A stretch of DNA of 55,095 bases, taken from positions 1 through 55,095 of the IMG/VR virus record IMGVR_UViG_3300009149_008416; one strand, written 5' to 3'. Position 1 is the first letter of the stretch. Each line of letters begins with the position of its first letter. The DNA is from a virus. Of this stretch, positions 26,032-52,590 are shown one piece after another. Position numbers and translations under genes: made by a program. The notes beneath the pieces are model-generated. The model was not told where the DNA came from. It saw only the letters and a list, made by a program, of their open reading frames with translations, and searched no databases.

Positions 26032-29000
26032 ATGGACAAACCTATAAAATTTATTCAGTCAAATAAAACAATAGGACGTAATAGACAGGGGCGTAGCGGA
26101 ATTAGTAAAGGTGTCGAAAGACAAGATATAAAAACACAAAAATTCGCTTCTTCTAATACTGTTTATACTCAACCTCACTTCTATTCTCCATTACATACAC
26201 CACAAAACTGGCAGATTCCTAGTCGAAGAGAAGAAATATATCAGTGGCAAATCATTGATGGCCAACTACTTACAGAACAAGGAACATATGTAAATATAGA
26301 AGATTTTGAATTTATACCAGAAGAAATTATAGAAGATGCTGTTACTGGTGGGCTTTTATATAATAATATAGAATCTCAAAATGTTATTACTGGCAAAGGT
26401 AATTTAGAATTTCCAACAAAATTTAGCGTTCGTGAATGTATAGAAAAAGAATGTTATAAATTTAGTTCAACAGGACAGTGGAGAAATTTTTCTGTTTCTG
26501 AAGAACACGGTATTTATGTTATTGACGGGGATGATTATAGAAAAAGAAAAAAAATTAAATCTGATAAAGAATATTGTTTAAAATTGGGAAAGAAACTTGG
26601 TTGGGCGAAAATAGAGACTTCTTTTTTAGATTTAGTTATTAGAAAAGAAGCAAAAGACGTAAAGCTTAATGATTATCTTTTGATTCCAGTTCGTAAATTT
26701 GTCGAAAATGCAATCATACTTAATACTGATCTAGCTTGGAGTATTGGATTGCTCCAAGCTGACGGTCATTTATCCCATAGTGATAATGGAGGATATAATA
26801 CATGTTATACATTAAATAAAAACGAAGTTGTTTGTGAAAAAATAAAAACTATTTTGGAGAAATTTACAAAAAATAAAGTTCAATATTATCCTCACACAAA
26901 TAGTAAACAATCAAAAAGAATAATATTATCTGAAAAAGAACATTATAATAAAATTGCAAAATATACAATTGGAAAACACTCTGAAAAATGTTTTACTAAA
27001 GATATATTTGATTTAGACAAAGAATCTATGATGCATGTATTAGGAGGATATATTGATGGAGATGGTAGTTTTAATAAAGCTGAAGAAAAAATTATAATAA
27101 ATTGCTATTCTGAAAATATGTCTGATCAATTACAGCAGATGTTTTTAATGTGCGGTGTAAAATGTTCTCTAAAAAGATATCCTTTATATGGGGATCATTA
27201 TAAAACCAATTCAAAATGGTGTTATAAAATTTTTATTTCATCATCTGAGATTCCAAAAATTATACCCTATTTAAGATCTGACAAAATGCCAGAAGATTTT
27301 ATTCCTAAAACAACAAGAGAACTCAGATTTTTTTACGAAGAAGATGGAAATATCTTTGTGGCAAGTCCAATAGAAAAAATAGAAAAATTTTTATATTCTG
27401 GACCTGGTTATGATATAGAAATTCCAATTGATAGAAGTTATTGTTGTAGTGGATTTTATGTGAGCAATTGTCGCTTTTTCGTTGAAAATGAACCAAAGGT
27501 CGCTGCTGCTATTCAGTTTTATTGTTTTGACCCAGATGTTCCTATCTTGATGGCGGATGGTGAACAGAAGTCCATATCATCCATTAAAATAGGAAGTAAT
27601 ATTAGATCTCATGACGGCAGCATTAATAAAGTTATTAATAAATATGTAAGACATGCTGACGAAAAAATGATGAAGGTATCTGTTGCTGGAATAAATATTA
27701 GATCATTGAGAATGACGCCAGGTCACGAGGTTTTGACTGATGTAGATGGAAAAATTTGTTTTAAACAAATTGGAACATTGAAAAAAGGAGATTATTTATT
27801 AACTCCTATTAATTATGGAAATGAAGAATCAAATTTCATAAATAACGATTTAGCATGGCTTCTTGGTGCATATGCGGCCGAGGGATGTGGAATACCATAT
27901 GAACATATTAGTAAAATAGGAGTAAGTAGACAATATTATAAAGGAGTTTATTTTACAATACATTCTGACGAAAAGGAAACTTTTGGAAGTAAAATTATAG
28001 AAAAACTAAAAAAATTATATGGTGATTGTAACATAACAAGCTATGAATTAAAAGATAAAAATGCTTTCAAAATATGTGCTTATGGACAATCAATAGCTGA
28101 CGATTTAATTGGATTGTGCCCAGGTAATGCTAAAGATGGAGAAAAAAGATTTTCTCCTTTGGTTATGAATTTAAATCATAAAAATTTAACTGCTATTCTG
28201 GGCGGTTTTATGAGTGGTGATGGATGTTTTGCAGAAAATAATGGATTCCAAGGTGTAGGGGTTTCTAAAAAATTATGTGATCAAATTGCAAATATATGTG
28301 ATAAATTAGGATTAGAATATTCTTATTCAAAAACAAGAATATCTTTAAAAAATAGACAGGTTATTTATAATATAAGAATTTCAAGATGGGCATGTGAATG
28401 TTTACAGGAATACACTCATAAAATACCCAATAAATCTTGTTATGAAAAAAATGGAACAAATATTCCTTATTTTAAAAAAGGAAATTATATTTATAGAAGA
28501 ATTAAAAAAATAGAAGAATTTGATTATTCTGGAGATGTATATGATTTAGAAATAGAAAATAAACATTCTTACGTTGCAAATAGAATTGCGGTTCATAATT
28601 CGGAGTTCCCGATGCAAGGGTTCGAACTTCAATGTGGAGATCCAAAAATAAAAAGATATTATGAAGAACTAAATAAAAGACTTAGTTTAAATTATTGGCT
28701 TCCAATTATAAGTTCTGAATATTATTTGTTGGGCGATGCTTTTCCATTTCTTACTATTCAATGTAAAAAGTGCGGCGGTTCAGGAGTCTATGAAGATAAA
28801 GAATGTGATCATCAGGGCGGAACATTTTCTAAACTTACAGTTTTCAACCCTGACTGGATTGATGTTAAAGAAAATAGTCTTTTTAATGAACCATATATAC
28901 AGTTAAAACCAAACGAAGAATTAAGAAGAATTGTAACAGATAGACAGCCTGTTGAAATATATAATAGAATTCCAGAACATATTAGAATAATGGTTATGGC

Positions 29001-30495
29001 AGGACAGCCGATACCTCTTTCTAATAGGGCTGTTACTCATTTAAAACATATGCCAACACCAATTAGTCCATATGGTACATCTATTATCAGAAGACTATTT
29101 AAAACACTCGCATATAAAGATAGATTAATGACTGCAAACTGGATTGTTGCTGAAAGGCTTATTCTTCCTATTAGAATAATAAAAATAGGAAATGATGATC
29201 GTCCTGCTGGTGCCATTGATATTGCCAATGTGCAAGAACAAATTGCCGCAGTCATGAATGACCCCAACCTTACCCTCGTAACTCATCATGCTTTTACTTA
29301 TGAATTTGTAGGTGCTCAAGGACAAATTGTACAATTAGGGCCAGAATATGAGATGATAACTGGGGAAATTTTAGATGGTCTCATGCTTCCACAGGCCGTA
29401 TTAACATCAGAAATGCAGGGGTATCAAGGAGTTCAAATAGGCGCTGAAATACTCATTACCAGATTAGAAAACTGGAGAAATAAACTTAAAAATTATATAG
29501 AAGAAAGTATTTATCTTCCGGTAGCAAAAATGCAGGGATTTATTGATGAAGATGCAAGTAAAGATCTAGGCGATATTATCTATACATATCCAGAAATAAA
29601 ATGGAATGATCTTAAAATAAGAGACGACACACAAAGAAAACAACAATATTTAGGCTTACATGATGCTGGTATTATTTCTACACAAACACTTTCTGAAATA
29701 TTTGACTTAGATTATGATCAAGAAATAGAAAGAAAAAGAGAAGAAGTCAGTATTCAAATGAGTTTGGGTGGAGGAAATATGGGTGGTATGGGAGCAATGG
29801 GTGGAGGAATGGGCGGTATGCCTCCAATGGGAGGTGGTGGCCCTATGGGTGGTGGAGCGCCTCCGATGCCTGGAGGAGAAATGGGTGGTATGCCTCCGAT
29901 GCCTGGAGGAGAAATGGGCGGTATGACTGGCGCACCTGGCGGAGAAATGGGTGGGGGTATAGGAGGAGCATCTTCTGCTTCAAGAGGGCCAGGAACCGAA
30001 GGAAAAATTTTAAAAAGAAAAACTAAAAGTAGAATTGACAGAAAAAGTGAACAACAACAGCAACAACTTCCTGAAGTTATACAATTAACGTCAATAGAAA
30101 AAATATTATGGAGAAGATTATTTAGTGATCCATCTATTGAAATACCATTTCCAAAATATGCACAATTTAAAGTAGCCAATACACAGGGACAGTCATTTGT
30201 TTTAGATTTTGCTATACCTCATTTGAAAATAGGAATTGAAGCAGACGGCGCACTTCATCAACTGGATGAAAATAAAACCAGAGATGTTGATAGAGACCAA
30301 AGACTTGCAAGAAAAGGCTGGTGGATTCTAAGATTTAATGAGAGGGAGATCGAAAATAAAACAGAACAAGTTATACAAACAATAATGAAATATGTATCTA
30401 TGAGAATGCAGATGATAAAAAAAGAATCTTCATCAACAAAAGAGAAAGTAATTGGGACGATTACACAAACACTGGATTCTCTGACTGAGAGTTAA
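26032..30495 (+). CDS. Portal protein precursor with two inteins and a C-terminal endonuclease-like domain
   Basis: A 1487-residue precursor. Joining residues 1-72, an 18-residue piece (27469-27522) and the part from 28600 gives about 721 residues: WQIPSRREEIYQW-CRFFVENEPKVA...QFY-SEFPMQGFEL, typical of phage portals, followed by a CxxC-type insert (CKKCGGSG) and a helical core (ILDGLMLPQAVLTSEMQGYQ). The portal forms the dodecameric DNA gate at the head vertex. About 64 residues of Gly/Met/Pro (from residue 1247) link to a final domain (about 1355-1465) with DFAIPHLKIGIEADGALHQL and a later RDQRLARKGWWILRFNE. That pattern is DUF559/Vsr-like, a PD-(D/E)xK endonuclease fold. Both inteins and the fusion are unusual. 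Confidence 0.9.
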   Translation: MDKPIKFIQSNKTIGRNRQGRSGISKGVERQDIKTQKFASSNTVYTQPHFYSPLHTPQNWQIPSRREEIYQWQIIDGQLLTEQGTYVNIEDFEFIPEEIIEDAVTGGLLYNNIESQNVITGKGNLEFPTKFSVRECIEKECYKFSSTGQWRNFSVSEEHGIYVIDGDDYRKRKKIKSDKEYCLKLGKKLGWAKIETSFLDLVIRKEAKDVKLNDYLLIPVRKFVENAIILNTDLAWSIGLLQADGHLSHSDNGGYNTCYTLNKNEVVCEKIKTILEKFTKNKVQYYPHTNSKQSKRIILSEKEHYNKIAKYTIGKHSEKCFTKDIFDLDKESMMHVLGGYIDGDGSFNKAEEKIIINCYSENMSDQLQQMFLMCGVKCSLKRYPLYGDHYKTNSKWCYKIFISSSEIPKIIPYLRSDKMPEDFIPKTTRELRFFYEEDGNIFVASPIEKIEKFLYSGPGYDIEIPIDRSYCCSGFYVSNCRFFVENEPKVAAAIQFYCFDPDVPILMADGEQKSISSIKIGSNIRSHDGSINKVINKYVRHADEKMMKVSVAGINIRSLRMTPGHEVLTDVDGKICFKQIGTLKKGDYLLTPINYGNEESNFINNDLAWLLGAYAAEGCGIPYEHISKIGVSRQYYKGVYFTIHSDEKETFGSKIIEKLKKLYGDCNITSYELKDKNAFKICAYGQSIADDLIGLCPGNAKDGEKRFSPLVMNLNHKNLTAILGGFMSGDGCFAENNGFQGVGVSKKLCDQIANICDKLGLEYSYSKTRISLKNRQVIYNIRISRWACECLQEYTHKIPNKSCYEKNGTNIPYFKKGNYIYRRIKKIEEFDYSGDVYDLEIENKHSYVANRIAVHNSEFPMQGFELQCGDPKIKRYYEELNKRLSLNYWLPIISSEYYLLGDAFPFLTIQCKKCGGSGVYEDKECDHQGGTFSKLTVFNPDWIDVKENSLFNEPYIQLKPNEELRRIVTDRQPVEIYNRIPEHIRIMVMAGQPIPLSNRAVTHLKHMPTPISPYGTSIIRRLFKTLAYKDRLMTANWIVAERLILPIRIIKIGNDDRPAGAIDIANVQEQIAAVMNDPNLTLVTHHAFTYEFVGAQGQIVQLGPEYEMITGEILDGLMLPQAVLTSEMQGYQGVQIGAEILITRLENWRNKLKNYIEESIYLPVAKMQGFIDEDASKDLGDIIYTYPEIKWNDLKIRDDTQRKQQYLGLHDAGIISTQTLSEIFDLDYDQEIERKREEVSIQMSLGGGNMGGMGAMGGGMGGMPPMGGGGPMGGGAPPMPGGEMGGMPPMPGGEMGGMTGAPGGEMGGGIGGASSASRGPGTEGKILKRKTKSRIDRKSEQQQQQLPEVIQLTSIEKILWRRLFSDPSIEIPFPKYAQFKVANTQGQSFVLDFAIPHLKIGIEADGALHQLDENKTRDVDRDQRLARKGWWILRFNEREIENKTEQVIQTIMKYVSMRMQMIKKESSSTKEKVIGTITQTLDSLTES
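26248..27468 (+). other. Intein 1 in portal, non-canonical (Gln start), with LAGLIDADG endonuclease
   Basis: About 407 residues interrupt the portal. The first residue is inferred to be Gln (QIIDGQLLTEQG), the end is YVSN followed by Cys of the extein. Block B is SVSEEHGIYVID. LAGLIDADG-type motifs appear as SIGLLQADGHL and VLGGYIDGDGSF. Gln at position 1 and Ser in place of the penultimate His are rare, so splicing may be slow or follow a non-standard path. Boundaries come from extein continuity and need checking. Confidence 0.75.
27523..28599 (+). other. Intein 2 in portal, canonical Cys...HN/Ser, with LAGLIDADG endonuclease
   Basis: About 359 residues beginning CFDPDVPILMADGEQKSISS and ending RIAVHN before a Ser of the extein. 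Block B is MTPGHEVL. LAGLIDADG-type motifs appear as LLGAYAAEGCG and ILGGFMSGDGCF. All core splicing residues are present, so it should splice. It is only 18 extein residues downstream of intein 1. Confidence 0.92.
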
Positions 30496-33563: not shown

Positions 33564-36011
33564 ATGTTAACAAAAACAAAAATAGATTTACAAATGAGAA
33601 ATTTTGAATTTCTTAATAGAGTAAAAATGCCTTTTGCTAAAATGAGCAATGATTTATCTAAAAAAGTATCTTTATATGAGAATTTCGGTTTTGTTAAAAC
33701 CGCAACAAAAAAACCTACAGAACATCCTGGTACTCTTCAATTCCCAGAAGATTTTGATTTAAAAAAAGATATGCTGGATCATCCTGACAATCTTTATGTT
33801 AAAGCTTTGGCTATAGTTGCTGACGAAGCTAATGATAACGGTGATTTTTTTAGTAAAGAAGAACTTCAAAAAAGTTATCATACATTTGTAGGATGTCCAC
33901 TATTCGTAAATCACAAAAATGATGATGTAGAAGAAGCTAGAGGAACTATTATTTATGCCGAATGGTCTGATGAAGAAAATGGTGTGATGATTATAGGAAG
34001 AGTTGATGCCAGAGCCTATCCAAAACTTGCTAGAGGAATATCAGAAGGATATATAAGTGGCGTCTCGATGGGAGCAGTTAGTGCTGGCACTATGATATTA
34101 ATGTCTGACTTTTCACAAAAACCAATTGAAGAAATAAAAGCAGGTGATTTTGTAATTTCTCATAATGGAAATATAAATGAAGTAGAATTTGTACATGGAA
34201 CTTTAGTAGGTAAGGAAATGTATAAATTTGATTTAATGACCTATCATAAATCTCCATTTTTTACTGAAGAACATCCAATTTTAGTTATAGATCAAGAACA
34301 AATTAATTTTGAAAAGAAAGAATCAATAAAAAAAGCAAATTTAAATACATATAATAGAAAAAAAGGGAAAACTTTTGATTTTATTGGTCAAGATGGATGG
34401 AGATCAAAAAGTTATTCACCTGTATTTAAAGAAGCAAAAGATATTAAAAATGGAGATTTCTTATTAATTCCGTCAAGATTTAATTTAGAAGATAGAATTG
34501 ATAATGATGATGATTTTTACTATTTATTAGGTGCATTTATTGGGGACGGATATTTACAAAGAGATAAATATGGAAAAGAAAATGAAATTTGTTTTTGTTT
34601 TGGACTTTCAGAAACTAAATTGCATGATAAAATAATTGAAATTGGAAAAAAATATTTTAAATCAGAACCAAGAAAAATTATTTGTTCTGAAAGAAATGGA
34701 ATGTATATAAGTTTTAGAGACGAAGAAAAAGCACAATGGATATTAAATAATATAGGAAATGGGTCAAAAAATAAAAGACTTAATATAAATATTGATACTT
34801 ATTCAAAGGCTTCATATTTATTAAGTGGATATTTGGATACTGATGGATGTATAGTAAATAAAATAAATCAAAATGTAAGAGGAAATAAATTTGGAGGATT
34901 TCAAATTTCAAGTGCAAATATTTCTCTTCTTGAAGATATACAAAATTTATTAATAGCATGTGATTGTTTATCAAGAATAAGTACAATGTTTAGGGTTCCA
35001 TCAAAAAATAGTGTTGTAAAGATTAAAACTATAGAACATACTTTATCTATTGGCAGTAATTGTTATAACATATTTAGAAATTCTTTAAAATATTCAGATT
35101 CAATTTTTTCTACTCCTATTATAAAAGCAGGTAAAAGTTTTATAACAACAATTTATAATAGAAAATATATGATCTGTCCTGTTAAAAATACTTTTATAAC
35201 AGAATGGAACGAACCAGTATATGATTTGACAGTAAAAAATGATGAAAGTTATATAGCAGACGGAATAGCAATTCATAATTGTCAGGTGGAATATAGTAAG
35301 TGTTCAATTTGTGGAAATGAAGCGGCTAAAGAGGAGGATTATTGTGTACACATCAAAGAACATAAAACTCGTAAATATAACGGTAAAGATGTATATGAAA
35401 TTAATTTTGGTTTAAAATTTATTGAACTTTCTTTTGTCGTTGATCCAGCATGTTCAACTTGTTTTATACAGGAAATTTATGATGTAGATGATTTAAAACA
35501 AAAAGTTGCAGAAATTAAGAATTTTGCTGGTAGATTTAGAAAAATTGCTTCAAAGATTGCCGGCAAAGCTGAGTTAGATAAGTTAAATCAAGCAGAAAAT
35601 CTTATTCAAGAAGTTGCGAAAACAATGTTGGATCAAAAGGAACATCTTGAACTTTCATATGTTACAGATTTAGTAGAAGCATTAGCAAAACTTCAAGAAA
35701 CTAAAGATGAATTATTAGATATGGGATATGAAACATTAGATTCTTCAGGACAACAAAATCAACAAGAAACAGGTTTAACAACTACTCCACCAGAAGAAAA
35801 TTTACCAATTGAAAAAGGACAAAATCCGGAAGAACAACAAGATATAGAGTATGAAAATGCGGGCGCAATGCCTGCGGGAGAAGTTGGTAGTGTAACAATG
35901 CCAACTCCGCTTGCATCCGCCTTTAGAAAAAAAATAATGAAGCAAGCAAAACAAAAAAACTTATCAAATGTTTTTAAAAATAGTTTAAGGAAAAAATGGA
36001 ACAAGGAGTAA
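33564..36011 (+). CDS. Prohead protease precursor with an intein
   Basis: An 815-residue precursor; removing the intein (34080-35279) leaves about 415 residues. The protease is a herpesvirus-assemblin-like serine protease: NHKNDDVEEARGTI gives the catalytic His region, and YISGVSMGA gives the nucleophilic Ser just before the intein. CSICGNEAAKEEDYC after it is a zinc-like pair, and INFGLKFIELSFVVDPAC is typical of this family. The C-terminal 120 residues are acidic and Gln-rich, like a scaffold extension. Such proteases cleave scaffold and capsid N-termini during head maturation. Only a weak AAAGAAAG site precedes the ATG. The stop nearly abuts the next gene, whose ribosome binding site lies inside this one. 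Confidence 0.9.
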   Translation: MLTKTKIDLQMRNFEFLNRVKMPFAKMSNDLSKKVSLYENFGFVKTATKKPTEHPGTLQFPEDFDLKKDMLDHPDNLYVKALAIVADEANDNGDFFSKEELQKSYHTFVGCPLFVNHKNDDVEEARGTIIYAEWSDEENGVMIIGRVDARAYPKLARGISEGYISGVSMGAVSAGTMILMSDFSQKPIEEIKAGDFVISHNGNINEVEFVHGTLVGKEMYKFDLMTYHKSPFFTEEHPILVIDQEQINFEKKESIKKANLNTYNRKKGKTFDFIGQDGWRSKSYSPVFKEAKDIKNGDFLLIPSRFNLEDRIDNDDDFYYLLGAFIGDGYLQRDKYGKENEICFCFGLSETKLHDKIIEIGKKYFKSEPRKIICSERNGMYISFRDEEKAQWILNNIGNGSKNKRLNINIDTYSKASYLLSGYLDTDGCIVNKINQNVRGNKFGGFQISSANISLLEDIQNLLIACDCLSRISTMFRVPSKNSVVKIKTIEHTLSIGSNCYNIFRNSLKYSDSIFSTPIIKAGKSFITTIYNRKYMICPVKNTFITEWNEPVYDLTVKNDESYIADGIAIHNCQVEYSKCSICGNEAAKEEDYCVHIKEHKTRKYNGKDVYEINFGLKFIELSFVVDPACSTCFIQEIYDVDDLKQKVAEIKNFAGRFRKIASKIAGKAELDKLNQAENLIQEVAKTMLDQKEHLELSYVTDLVEALAKLQETKDELLDMGYETLDSSGQQNQQETGLTTTPPEENLPIEKGQNPEEQQDIEYENAGAMPAGEVGSVTMPTPLASAFRKKIMKQAKQKNLSNVFKNSLRKKWNKE
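34080..35279 (+). other. Intein in prohead protease, Ser start, with LAGLIDADG endonuclease
   Basis: About 400 residues beginning SAGTMILMSDFSQKPIEEIK, ending GIAIHN before Cys of the extein. Motifs LLGAFIGDGYL and LLSGYLDTDGCI identify a dodecapeptide homing endonuclease. Position 1 is inferred to be Ser. Insertion lies a few residues after the catalytic Ser, so the protease is inactive until spliced. Confidence 0.9.
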
Positions 36012-49998: not shown

Positions 49999-52590
49999 AT
50001 GAAATTAATTAATAAAACAGAAACAACTTTAATATTCAATGATATTAATTTAGTACTGGTATATGATAAAGACGGAAAAGGTGTTGATGTGGAAGATTAT
50101 GATATTAAAAATTCTCCAACACTAAAACACTATATAGATAGAGGTCTCGTGGAAGTTAATAAACCAGATGAAGATAATGTTGTATATCGATCAATAAAAA
50201 ATAGACAAGAAGTTGTAGATAGGCAATTAAAAGAGCCTACTAAGATTAAGAAAAACAGTGAGCAATCAGAAAGTTCTAACTCAGACATTATTTTAGGTGG
50301 AGAAACGAAAGTGATATCATCTAGGGTTTATAGGGTTCCCGAGACCTCTTCTATTGACAAATTTAGAAATACAGGAAAGATGGATATATCTTATTGTGGC
50401 CCATGTTTTTCTGGTGATACAATAGTTATTATCACAGATGGTGTTAAATTTATTAAAGATGTTGAAATAAATGATCGCGTTCTAACTCATAATGGGAATT
50501 GGAAAAGTGTAACAGGAAAGCACATAAAGTTTTATAATTCATCCATGTTATCTATAAAGCCTAATTTATTTAATGGAATTAGTATAAATTGTACTCCAAA
50601 CCATAGATTTTATATCAAAAACATAGAAGAAATAAAATGGAAAAAAGCAAGATCAATATCTTCTGAAGATTCTTTTATTATTCCTCCAATTTCATTTGAG
50701 AGTGAGAAAAAATTTATTCTACTTTCAGACTATGTTAAAATAGATTTTGATGAATTGCAAGATGGTTTTTGTTCTGTAATTAAACTTACCGATGGTTTTC
50801 TTAATATTATATGGGAATATATTAACTCTGGAGAAATAATAGGTGATTCAGAAGTTTCTTTTAAGATTAATAAATATTTCTTTTTTGAGTTTATGTCATT
50901 AATGAGAGAAATTTTTGGTGTTAGTTCGGTTAAGTATGTAGAGTATGAAAAATATTTTAAATATACTTGTCATTCTTTTTCGTTAGTTAAATTTTTTGAA
51001 TATTTTTGCGGTTCAGAATTTAAGAAGATTCCATCATTTATATTTAAGAAAAATATATCAAAAAGATTTTTGAAGTTAATACTTTTTGAAAAAGAAGCAA
51101 ATAAAAAAGGAACAATTGTTATATATTCCAGACATCCATTGATTGCCTGGGGCATTAGACTTTTACTTCTTGAATCATCTATTGTATCATCAATTCAGTA
51201 TATCCCATCAAGAAAAAATTATTGTGTATCATTTTCTTTAAAAAAATTCTTTAAGACATTAAAAGATAATAATTTGGTTGATGAATCATTTAAATGGGAG
51301 GATACAACGGTTAAAAATAGACCGGCAACTTATGATTTTACTGATAATGGAATATATGTGCCATTTTATGATATGAAACCAGGAGAATATTCTGAATATG
51401 TTTATAATCTTGATGTTGAAGATGACAATTCATATACTGCTGGTTTTTGTTCTGTTCATAATTGTTATGATGCAGGAGGCTATGCTAAAATGAACAGAAA
51501 TTATATGTTCGGATTATCTAAAAAAGATGATGTTAATTTAAAACTTGATTTACCAAAAGATTTATCAATAAGAAAACAAGTTGAAGAGGAATTAGTTAAT
51601 AAGCTTGATGAATTAAGAAAAAACAAAGTTGGTGAAAATGTGGTAAAAATTTATGGAAGTACGGCAACAGGACCGATGACGGGCAGATATAATATTTTGT
51701 ATACAATGATGGAAACTGAAAAAGTACATCCTCAATATATTGAAAAATGTAACATGGCTAATGAATTATGGTTGCCTACCGATTGGTGCATAGAAAAATT
51801 TAAAGAAAGCGGTGCTCGTTCAAAGATTTATAAGATGCCAATAGGAGTTGATTTTGAGAATTATGTCGAAGGTAAACCTCCAGTAACGTTTGGTGGCAAA
51901 GAGAATGGCTTTATATTCTTAACGGTATTTGGTTGGAGTCTTCGTAAGGGTTATGATATACTTTTACAGTCTTATTATGAGGAATTTTCTAAAAATGATG
52001 ATGTAACTCTTGTTATATGTAGTAGATTTGCTGGCAAGACTGATAAAACATCAAAACAAGTAATTAAAGATAATATTAAGACAATAGAACAATCTGTTAA
52101 AAAATTAAATAAACCAAAACCTCCACTCTTAATAGCTGATGTTATACCAGAGAAGATGATGGGAAGTTTATATAATTCTGCTCATGCATACATATGCATT
52201 TCTAGGGGTGAGGGATTTGGCATGCCTTTTTGCGAGGCCAGTTTATGTGGTTTACCTGTTATAGCTTCTAATTATTCTGGACAGAAAGATTTTCTTAATT
52301 ATGATAATTCATTTTTAGTGGAACCGGAAGGATGTCAAGTAAATCCAGGGGCAGAATGGGTTTCATATTATTATACTGATATGCCAATGGCTTATTTTGG
52401 TAGAGATTCTATTGATCAAACAAGGGCACATATGAGATATGTATATGAAAATTATGCGCTTGCAAAGGATAGAAATAGGAAATTACAGAAGTTTATAAAA
52501 GAAAACTATGATTGGAATAAATGTGTTAACAGGATGTACGATAGATTAAAAATAATCTATTCAGAAATTAAACATAGAGGTGAAAAATGA
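49999..52590 (+). CDS. GT4 glycosyltransferase precursor with an intein
   Basis: An 863-residue precursor; splicing out 50404-51462 leaves about 510 residues. Residues 1-130 form a non-GT N-terminal region of unknown role. The GT-B enzyme starts at SYCGP-CYDAGGYAKMNRNY, the N-terminal donor/acceptor loop. It continues with VFGWSLRKGYDILLQSYYEE and the EGFGMPFCEASLCGLPVIAS motif, whose E-x7-E is typical of GT4 retaining transferases. The sugar and acceptor are unknown; phage GTs modify DNA bases, virion proteins or host glycans. It is followed by a gene coupled through an ATGA overlap. Confidence 0.88.
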   Translation: MKLINKTETTLIFNDINLVLVYDKDGKGVDVEDYDIKNSPTLKHYIDRGLVEVNKPDEDNVVYRSIKNRQEVVDRQLKEPTKIKKNSEQSESSNSDIILGGETKVISSRVYRVPETSSIDKFRNTGKMDISYCGPCFSGDTIVIITDGVKFIKDVEINDRVLTHNGNWKSVTGKHIKFYNSSMLSIKPNLFNGISINCTPNHRFYIKNIEEIKWKKARSISSEDSFIIPPISFESEKKFILLSDYVKIDFDELQDGFCSVIKLTDGFLNIIWEYINSGEIIGDSEVSFKINKYFFFEFMSLMREIFGVSSVKYVEYEKYFKYTCHSFSLVKFFEYFCGSEFKKIPSFIFKKNISKRFLKLILFEKEANKKGTIVIYSRHPLIAWGIRLLLLESSIVSSIQYIPSRKNYCVSFSLKKFFKTLKDNNLVDESFKWEDTTVKNRPATYDFTDNGIYVPFYDMKPGEYSEYVYNLDVEDDNSYTAGFCSVHNCYDAGGYAKMNRNYMFGLSKKDDVNLKLDLPKDLSIRKQVEEELVNKLDELRKNKVGENVVKIYGSTATGPMTGRYNILYTMMETEKVHPQYIEKCNMANELWLPTDWCIEKFKESGARSKIYKMPIGVDFENYVEGKPPVTFGGKENGFIFLTVFGWSLRKGYDILLQSYYEEFSKNDDVTLVICSRFAGKTDKTSKQVIKDNIKTIEQSVKKLNKPKPPLLIADVIPEKMMGSLYNSAHAYICISRGEGFGMPFCEASLCGLPVIASNYSGQKDFLNYDNSFLVEPEGCQVNPGAEWVSYYYTDMPMAYFGRDSIDQTRAHMRYVYENYALAKDRNRKLQKFIKENYDWNKCVNRMYDRLKIIYSEIKHRGEK
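50404..51462 (+). other. Intein in glycosyltransferase, with degenerate endonuclease region
   Basis: About 353 residues beginning CFSGDTIVIITDGVKFIKDV and ending FCSVHN before a Cys extein residue. Block B is NCTPNHRFYI. No clear LAGLIDADG pair remains in the middle; the region looks like a decayed endonuclease. Splicing residues are intact. Confidence 0.92.

Follow-up and report, generated by a model that had tools for sequence, protein, structure and literature searches.

The first of two inteins in the portal gene of this virus carries a homing endonuclease and probably splices by a class 2-type route, in which the first C-extein residue, Cys+1, would attack the N-terminal junction directly. 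The gene lies in the window, a 55-kb viral contig that is perhaps a fragment (Table 1). Residue 1 of the intein is Gln, which is not a nucleophile. This is no oddity of one sequence, as 15 inteins at the same insertion site form one clade in which residue 1 is free to vary.

Table 1. Positions of the portal inteins, their motifs, and other features of the window. A slash marks a splice junction.
Feature	Position	Strand	Remarks
Portal ORF, 1487 aa	26032..30495		two inteins inside
N-extein of portal, aa 1-72, ending ...SRREEIYQW	26032..26247	+	conserved in intein-free portals L004-L008 and L078-L121
Intein 1, 407 aa, Gln1...Ser406-Asn407 (portal aa 73-479, Gln73 to Asn479)	26248..27468	+	41 empty sites and structure alignment
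Block A, QIIDGQLLTEQG, Q1-G12	26248..26283	+	residue 1 hypervariable across the family
Family-I motif DAVTGG (invariant D30, T33, G35)	26335..26352	+	not found in sister family
Block B, S84-E-E-H87 (B:7 Ser, B:10 His)	26497..26508	+	His invariant in family
First LAGLIDADG motif of homing endonuclease, GLLQADG	26746..26766	+	fold matches I-DmoI, PI-SceI
Second LAGLIDADG motif, GGYIDGDG	27043..27066	+	
Blocks F and G, YDIEIPIDRSYCCSGFYVSN (Asp F:4, Ser G:6, Asn G:7)	27409..27468	+	
Cys+1, first C-extein residue	27469..27471	+	proposed attacking nucleophile
Second portal intein, 359 aa, Cys1...His-Asn/Ser	27523..28599	+	ordinary class 1
DUF559/MTES_1575 nuclease-like domain, C-terminal in portal	30082..30393 (approx.)		
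Prohead protease ORF	33564..36011		
Prohead protease intein, 402 aa, Ala1	34074..35279		
Glycosyltransferase-like protein ORF	49999..52590		
Intein in glycosyltransferase-like protein, Cys1...His-Asn/Cys	50404..51462		

Portals of the same kind are encoded by viral contigs, 12 at first and dozens later, and the portal of Bacillus phage G is a distant relative (30% identity). In 41 distinct intein-free portals from viral contigs, the insertion site reads ...HTPQNWQIASKRREIYQW(A/S/C/V)RFYYENEPKVAA..., and the residue between KRREIYQW and RFYY is Ala in 27, Ser in 8, Cys in 5, and Val in 1. Because these empty sites place Trp72 as the last N-extein residue, Gln is residue 1 of the intein. The junctions are REEIYQW/QIIDGQ on the N-terminal side and GFYVSN/CRFFVENEP on the C-terminal side, and the insertion is in frame and precise between exteins that are contiguous in the relatives, as expected of an intein. 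The ORF translation and the empty sites show that the coordinates in the initial annotation are exact, and its reading of a Gln start and a Ser-Asn end holds: alignment with solved inteins agrees on the Gln, and a Ser-Asn end is found in the whole family. A boundary at a nearby Cys or Ser, which would have undone that reading, is excluded by the empty sites and by the structure alignment. Trp72 as residue 1, which allows block A to align without a gap, was dropped because this Trp is extein in every empty site.

Intein-splicing models of Pfam and NCBIfam do not match intein 1. The profile search that had been proposed for locating blocks A, B, F, and G therefore recognizes the endonuclease alone, and homologues were needed to place the blocks. 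Searches of viral contigs and phage records with the single intein sequence, and profile searches of genome contigs, revealed no full-length relative, and a scan with the pattern YxCxGFxVSNC gave mostly chance matches outside long reading frames. Adding the conserved N-extein as an anchor to the query recovered the relatives. This precursor search, together with an intein-profile search, yielded 15 same-site inteins with a readable N terminus, plus one fragment (L134).

An AlphaFold2 model of the precursor, based on a 26-sequence alignment (pLDDT 87.8, pTM 0.88; an earlier model from 3 sequences, with pLDDT 36, was not usable), has a predicted HINT fold with blocks A, B, F, and G. Using VIA-align, model residues 21..427 (Gln1..Asn407) pair with the first through last residues of 2cw7, 1dq3, and 1vde. 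Foldseek and VIA-align group the model with intact endonuclease-bearing inteins (TliVMA, Z 31.4; 2cw7, 1dq3, and PI-SceI), and mini-inteins are also matched, including the class 2 KlbA precursor 2jmz (Z 16.2, rmsd 2.8, 165 residues, 19% identity). Because the match to 2jmz is no better than that to many class 1 inteins, the modeled fold does not choose between classes, and these structure matches support the fold and the boundary, not the choice of mechanism.

Nine different residues (Q, S, D, E, L, K, M, V, and T, never Ala) occupy position 1 among the 15 family members. These are Gln in the window, L043, and L136; Leu in L046, L048, L052, and L128; Thr in L053 and L072; and Ser, Asp, Glu, Lys, Met, and Val in L042, L044, L045, L047, L050, and L051, respectively. 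The Leu of L048 is encoded by TTG and is Met only if this codon is read as a start. Thus, 12 of the 15, including the window, have a residue other than Cys, Ser, or Thr. When measured on 13 sequences, before L128 and L136 were included, the entropy of column 1 is 3.03 bits, which ranks third in variability of 425 columns. On the tree, residue 1 changes at least nine times within the family.

A second group of 12 inteins occupies the identical insertion point, and its members are class 1. The two groups are related over both the splicing and endonuclease domains (130-162 bits) and have similar mean pairwise identities (51% in the family and 54% in the sister group), yet Ser1 (11 inteins) or Cys1 (1 intein) and a C-terminal Gln in place of Asn belong to the sister inteins (L054-L066) only. 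Column 1 of the sister group has an entropy of 0.41 bits and ranks 276 of 415. Each group is supported 100/100 by IQ-TREE, in a tree whose root is not firm, as the only outgroup, the class 1 intein L067, has a long branch. The residue before the C-terminal Gln in sister inteins is His, Tyr, Asn, or Phe, and these sequences constitute a natural set of inteins ending in Gln.

The remaining catalytic positions of the family are conserved. His B:10, Asp F:4, Ser G:6, and Asn G:7 do not vary (15/15), and B:7 is Ser or Thr in 14 of 15, with His in L136 only. In the window, block F begins Y388-D389 and block G is F403-Y-V-S406-N407; position F:13 appears to be Arg, not His. All members end in Ser-Asn followed by Cys, and this Cys+1 is present in 16 of 16 sequences vs. 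5 of 41 empty sites (Fisher p about 4e-10, a guide rather than a strict probability as the sequences are related). The +1 Cys in all members also sets them apart from bacterial intein-like domains, which have no +1 nucleophile. The dN/dS ratio over the intein in close pairs is about 0.1-0.28, with synonymous sites at or close to saturation in every pair except one. The inteins are therefore proteins maintained by purifying selection, not decaying ones. The suggestion in the initial annotation that the intein splices poorly is accordingly unsupported, as neither this ratio nor the invariance of the catalytic residues is what a decayed intein would show.

A nucleophile at residue 1 is required by class 1 inteins, and Cys F:4, Trp B:12, and Thr G:5 by class 3 inteins. 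Class 2 inteins have no first nucleophile, rely on direct attack by Cys+1, and need Thr B:7, His B:10, and Asp F:4. The class 2 examples published up to 2014 are all KlbA orthologues with Ala1 and Ser G:6 (PMC4031507, PMC3196547). Gln1 of the window is not the Cys, Ser, or Thr of class 1. Class 3 features are also missing: Asp F:4 is invariant, and the window has Ile at B:12 (S84-E-E-H87-G-I) and Val at G:5. In contrast, the class 2 features other than Ala1 and KlbA orthology are present, with L136 an exception at B:7; the family is found in phage portals and is most closely related to class 1 portal inteins. Direct attack by the extein Cys, one of the routes considered in the initial annotation, is thus the best-fitting mechanism judged from the sequences, with residue 1 hypervariable and His B:10, Asp F:4, Asn G:7, and Cys+1 invariant. 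That annotation also held that both unusual residues block the first acyl shift. This is correct for Gln1, which is no nucleophile, but not for the penultimate Ser, because G:6 acts in Asn cyclization. Because all reviewed class 2 inteins have Ser G:6, this Ser fits the class 2 route; about 5% of functional inteins are without His at G:6 (PMC4031507).

In the proposed mechanism, His B:10 and Ser B:7 would activate the Trp(-1)-Gln1 peptide bond, and Asp F:4 would activate the Cys+1 thiol, which would attack that bond directly to form the branched block G intermediate in a single step. Asn407 would then cyclize, with Ser406 replacing the usual His, to release the intein, and an S-N acyl shift would leave a seamless portal (...YQW-CRFF...). 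Residue 1 would have no chemical role and could drift. We infer splicing itself, the order of these steps, and the absence of another nucleophile. One point against direct attack is that L042 (Ser1) and L053 and L072 (Thr1) could still use residue 1. The apparent Arg at F:13 is another. Also, the literature examined contains no tested class 2 precedent for a bulky or charged residue 1, and KlbA inteins have Ala1.

Freedom of residue 1 and of the first strand, with Ser406-Asn407 fixed, would also be expected if splicing had been lost and only C-junction cleavage by Asn cyclization persisted, with the portal working without its first 72 residues. This is improbable, because the N-junction residues are kept (His B:10 in 15/15, Ser or Thr B:7 in 14/15) and conservation of the N-extein HTPQNWQIASKRREIYQW seems no lower than in intein-free portals. 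Moreover, Asn cyclization needs no Cys+1, yet this residue is found in 16/16 where empty sites mostly have Ala.

A similarly unlikely alternative is that another internal residue attacks first, as in a new relative of class 3. Within the splicing domain, no hydroxyl residue is invariant apart from Thr33 of the DxxTxG motif and Ser406, and the Thr33 motif was not found in the Ser1 sister family. However, hydroxyls are weaker nucleophiles, the sequence position of Thr33 is outside the known catalytic blocks, Ser G:6 is shared with class 2 KlbA, and F:4 is Asp, not Cys. The family alignment contains no invariant Cys inside the intein, so a class 3 route is unlikely. Two Cys residues considered as internal nucleophiles were dropped: Cys400 (SYxCSGF), present in the first three homologues, is Ala or Ser in most members, and Cys64 is not conserved in the family. 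Slow or signal-dependent splicing that regulates head assembly, as raised in the initial annotation, has a parallel in the possible modulated splicing of phage inteins with an unusual penultimate residue (PMC5050341). Nevertheless, it is unsupported here and we regard it as very unlikely, since further sites in the portal gene of relatives are also occupied by inteins, a pattern that simple homing targets would show.

The 55 kb contain four inteins, and head or portal genes account for three of these. The prohead protease intein starts with Ala (GVSMG/AVSAGTM...IAIHN/CQVEYSKC), and several intein-free homologues of this protease read DVSMG/C. These sequences make the Ala1 intein another class 2-like candidate; its G:6 residue is His, not Ser. 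Searches of viral contigs gave no homologue of it. The remaining intein is in a glycosyltransferase-like protein. Portal genes of relatives (L064, L072, L017, and L013) have additional intein sites, after RFYY or RFYQ, DFY, and EWYGA or VGS, and the L064 portal has three inteins in one gene. The nuclease-like domain at the C terminus of the portal lies behind a Gly/Met/Pro-rich linker, and a similar tail is found in relatives such as L004-L008.

Taken together, we lean toward the view that direct-attack inteins of class 2 type arose a second time, independently, in phage portal genes, at a site shared with class 1 Ser1 inteins, and that selection on their residue 1 was released. According to reviews, class 2 apparently had a single origin, and it is unsolved why class 1 inteins are incapable of direct attack (PMC4031507, PMC3196547). 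A 2020 review gives only the Ala1 KlbA example of class 2 (PMC7765530), mycobacteriophage inteins are reported as classes 1 and 3 only (PMC5050341), and we found no class 2 intein outside KlbA in the open-access papers that were searched. If the proposal is true, a single insertion-site lineage offers a way to study how the first nucleophile was lost. The 15 natural sequences, with nine first residues and a Ser1 sister at the same site, make the question of class 1 and direct attack testable, and inteins that tolerate nearly any residue 1 could serve protein ligation.

Among the known systems closest to the family is class 2 KlbA (Mja KlbA, PDB 2jmz/2jnq). Both have no N-terminal nucleophile, Cys+1, Ser/Thr B:7, His B:10, Asp F:4, Ser G:6, and the HINT fold, and the C-terminal junction is GFYVSN/C here vs. 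GFAVSN/C in KlbA. GYDIEI..GFYVSN of the window aligns in blocks F and G with IYDLTV..GFAVSN of KlbA by hhalign, within a weak overall relationship. In contrast to KlbA, the family is located in a phage portal, carries a LAGLIDADG endonuclease, and has nearly any residue at position 1, which is Ala in KlbA. Against a profile of the family's splicing domain, KlbA reaches 28 bits, compared with 37-60 for the Ser1 sisters, 48 for portal intein 2, and 52 for the Ala1 protease intein; all these alignments are short. Because the portal gene's own class 1 inteins mostly rank above KlbA, these scores favor an origin from those inteins, separate from KlbA. Class 3 inteins with the WCT motif (Mycobacteriophage Bethlehem DnaB, AceL NrdHF) likewise have no residue 1 nucleophile and are often found in phages, but the family differs in having Asp at F:4, no Trp B:12, and no invariant internal Cys. 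The Npu DnaE intein also ends in Ser-Asn/Cys, but is a split class 1 intein with Cys1; a penultimate Ser is therefore compatible with fast splicing.
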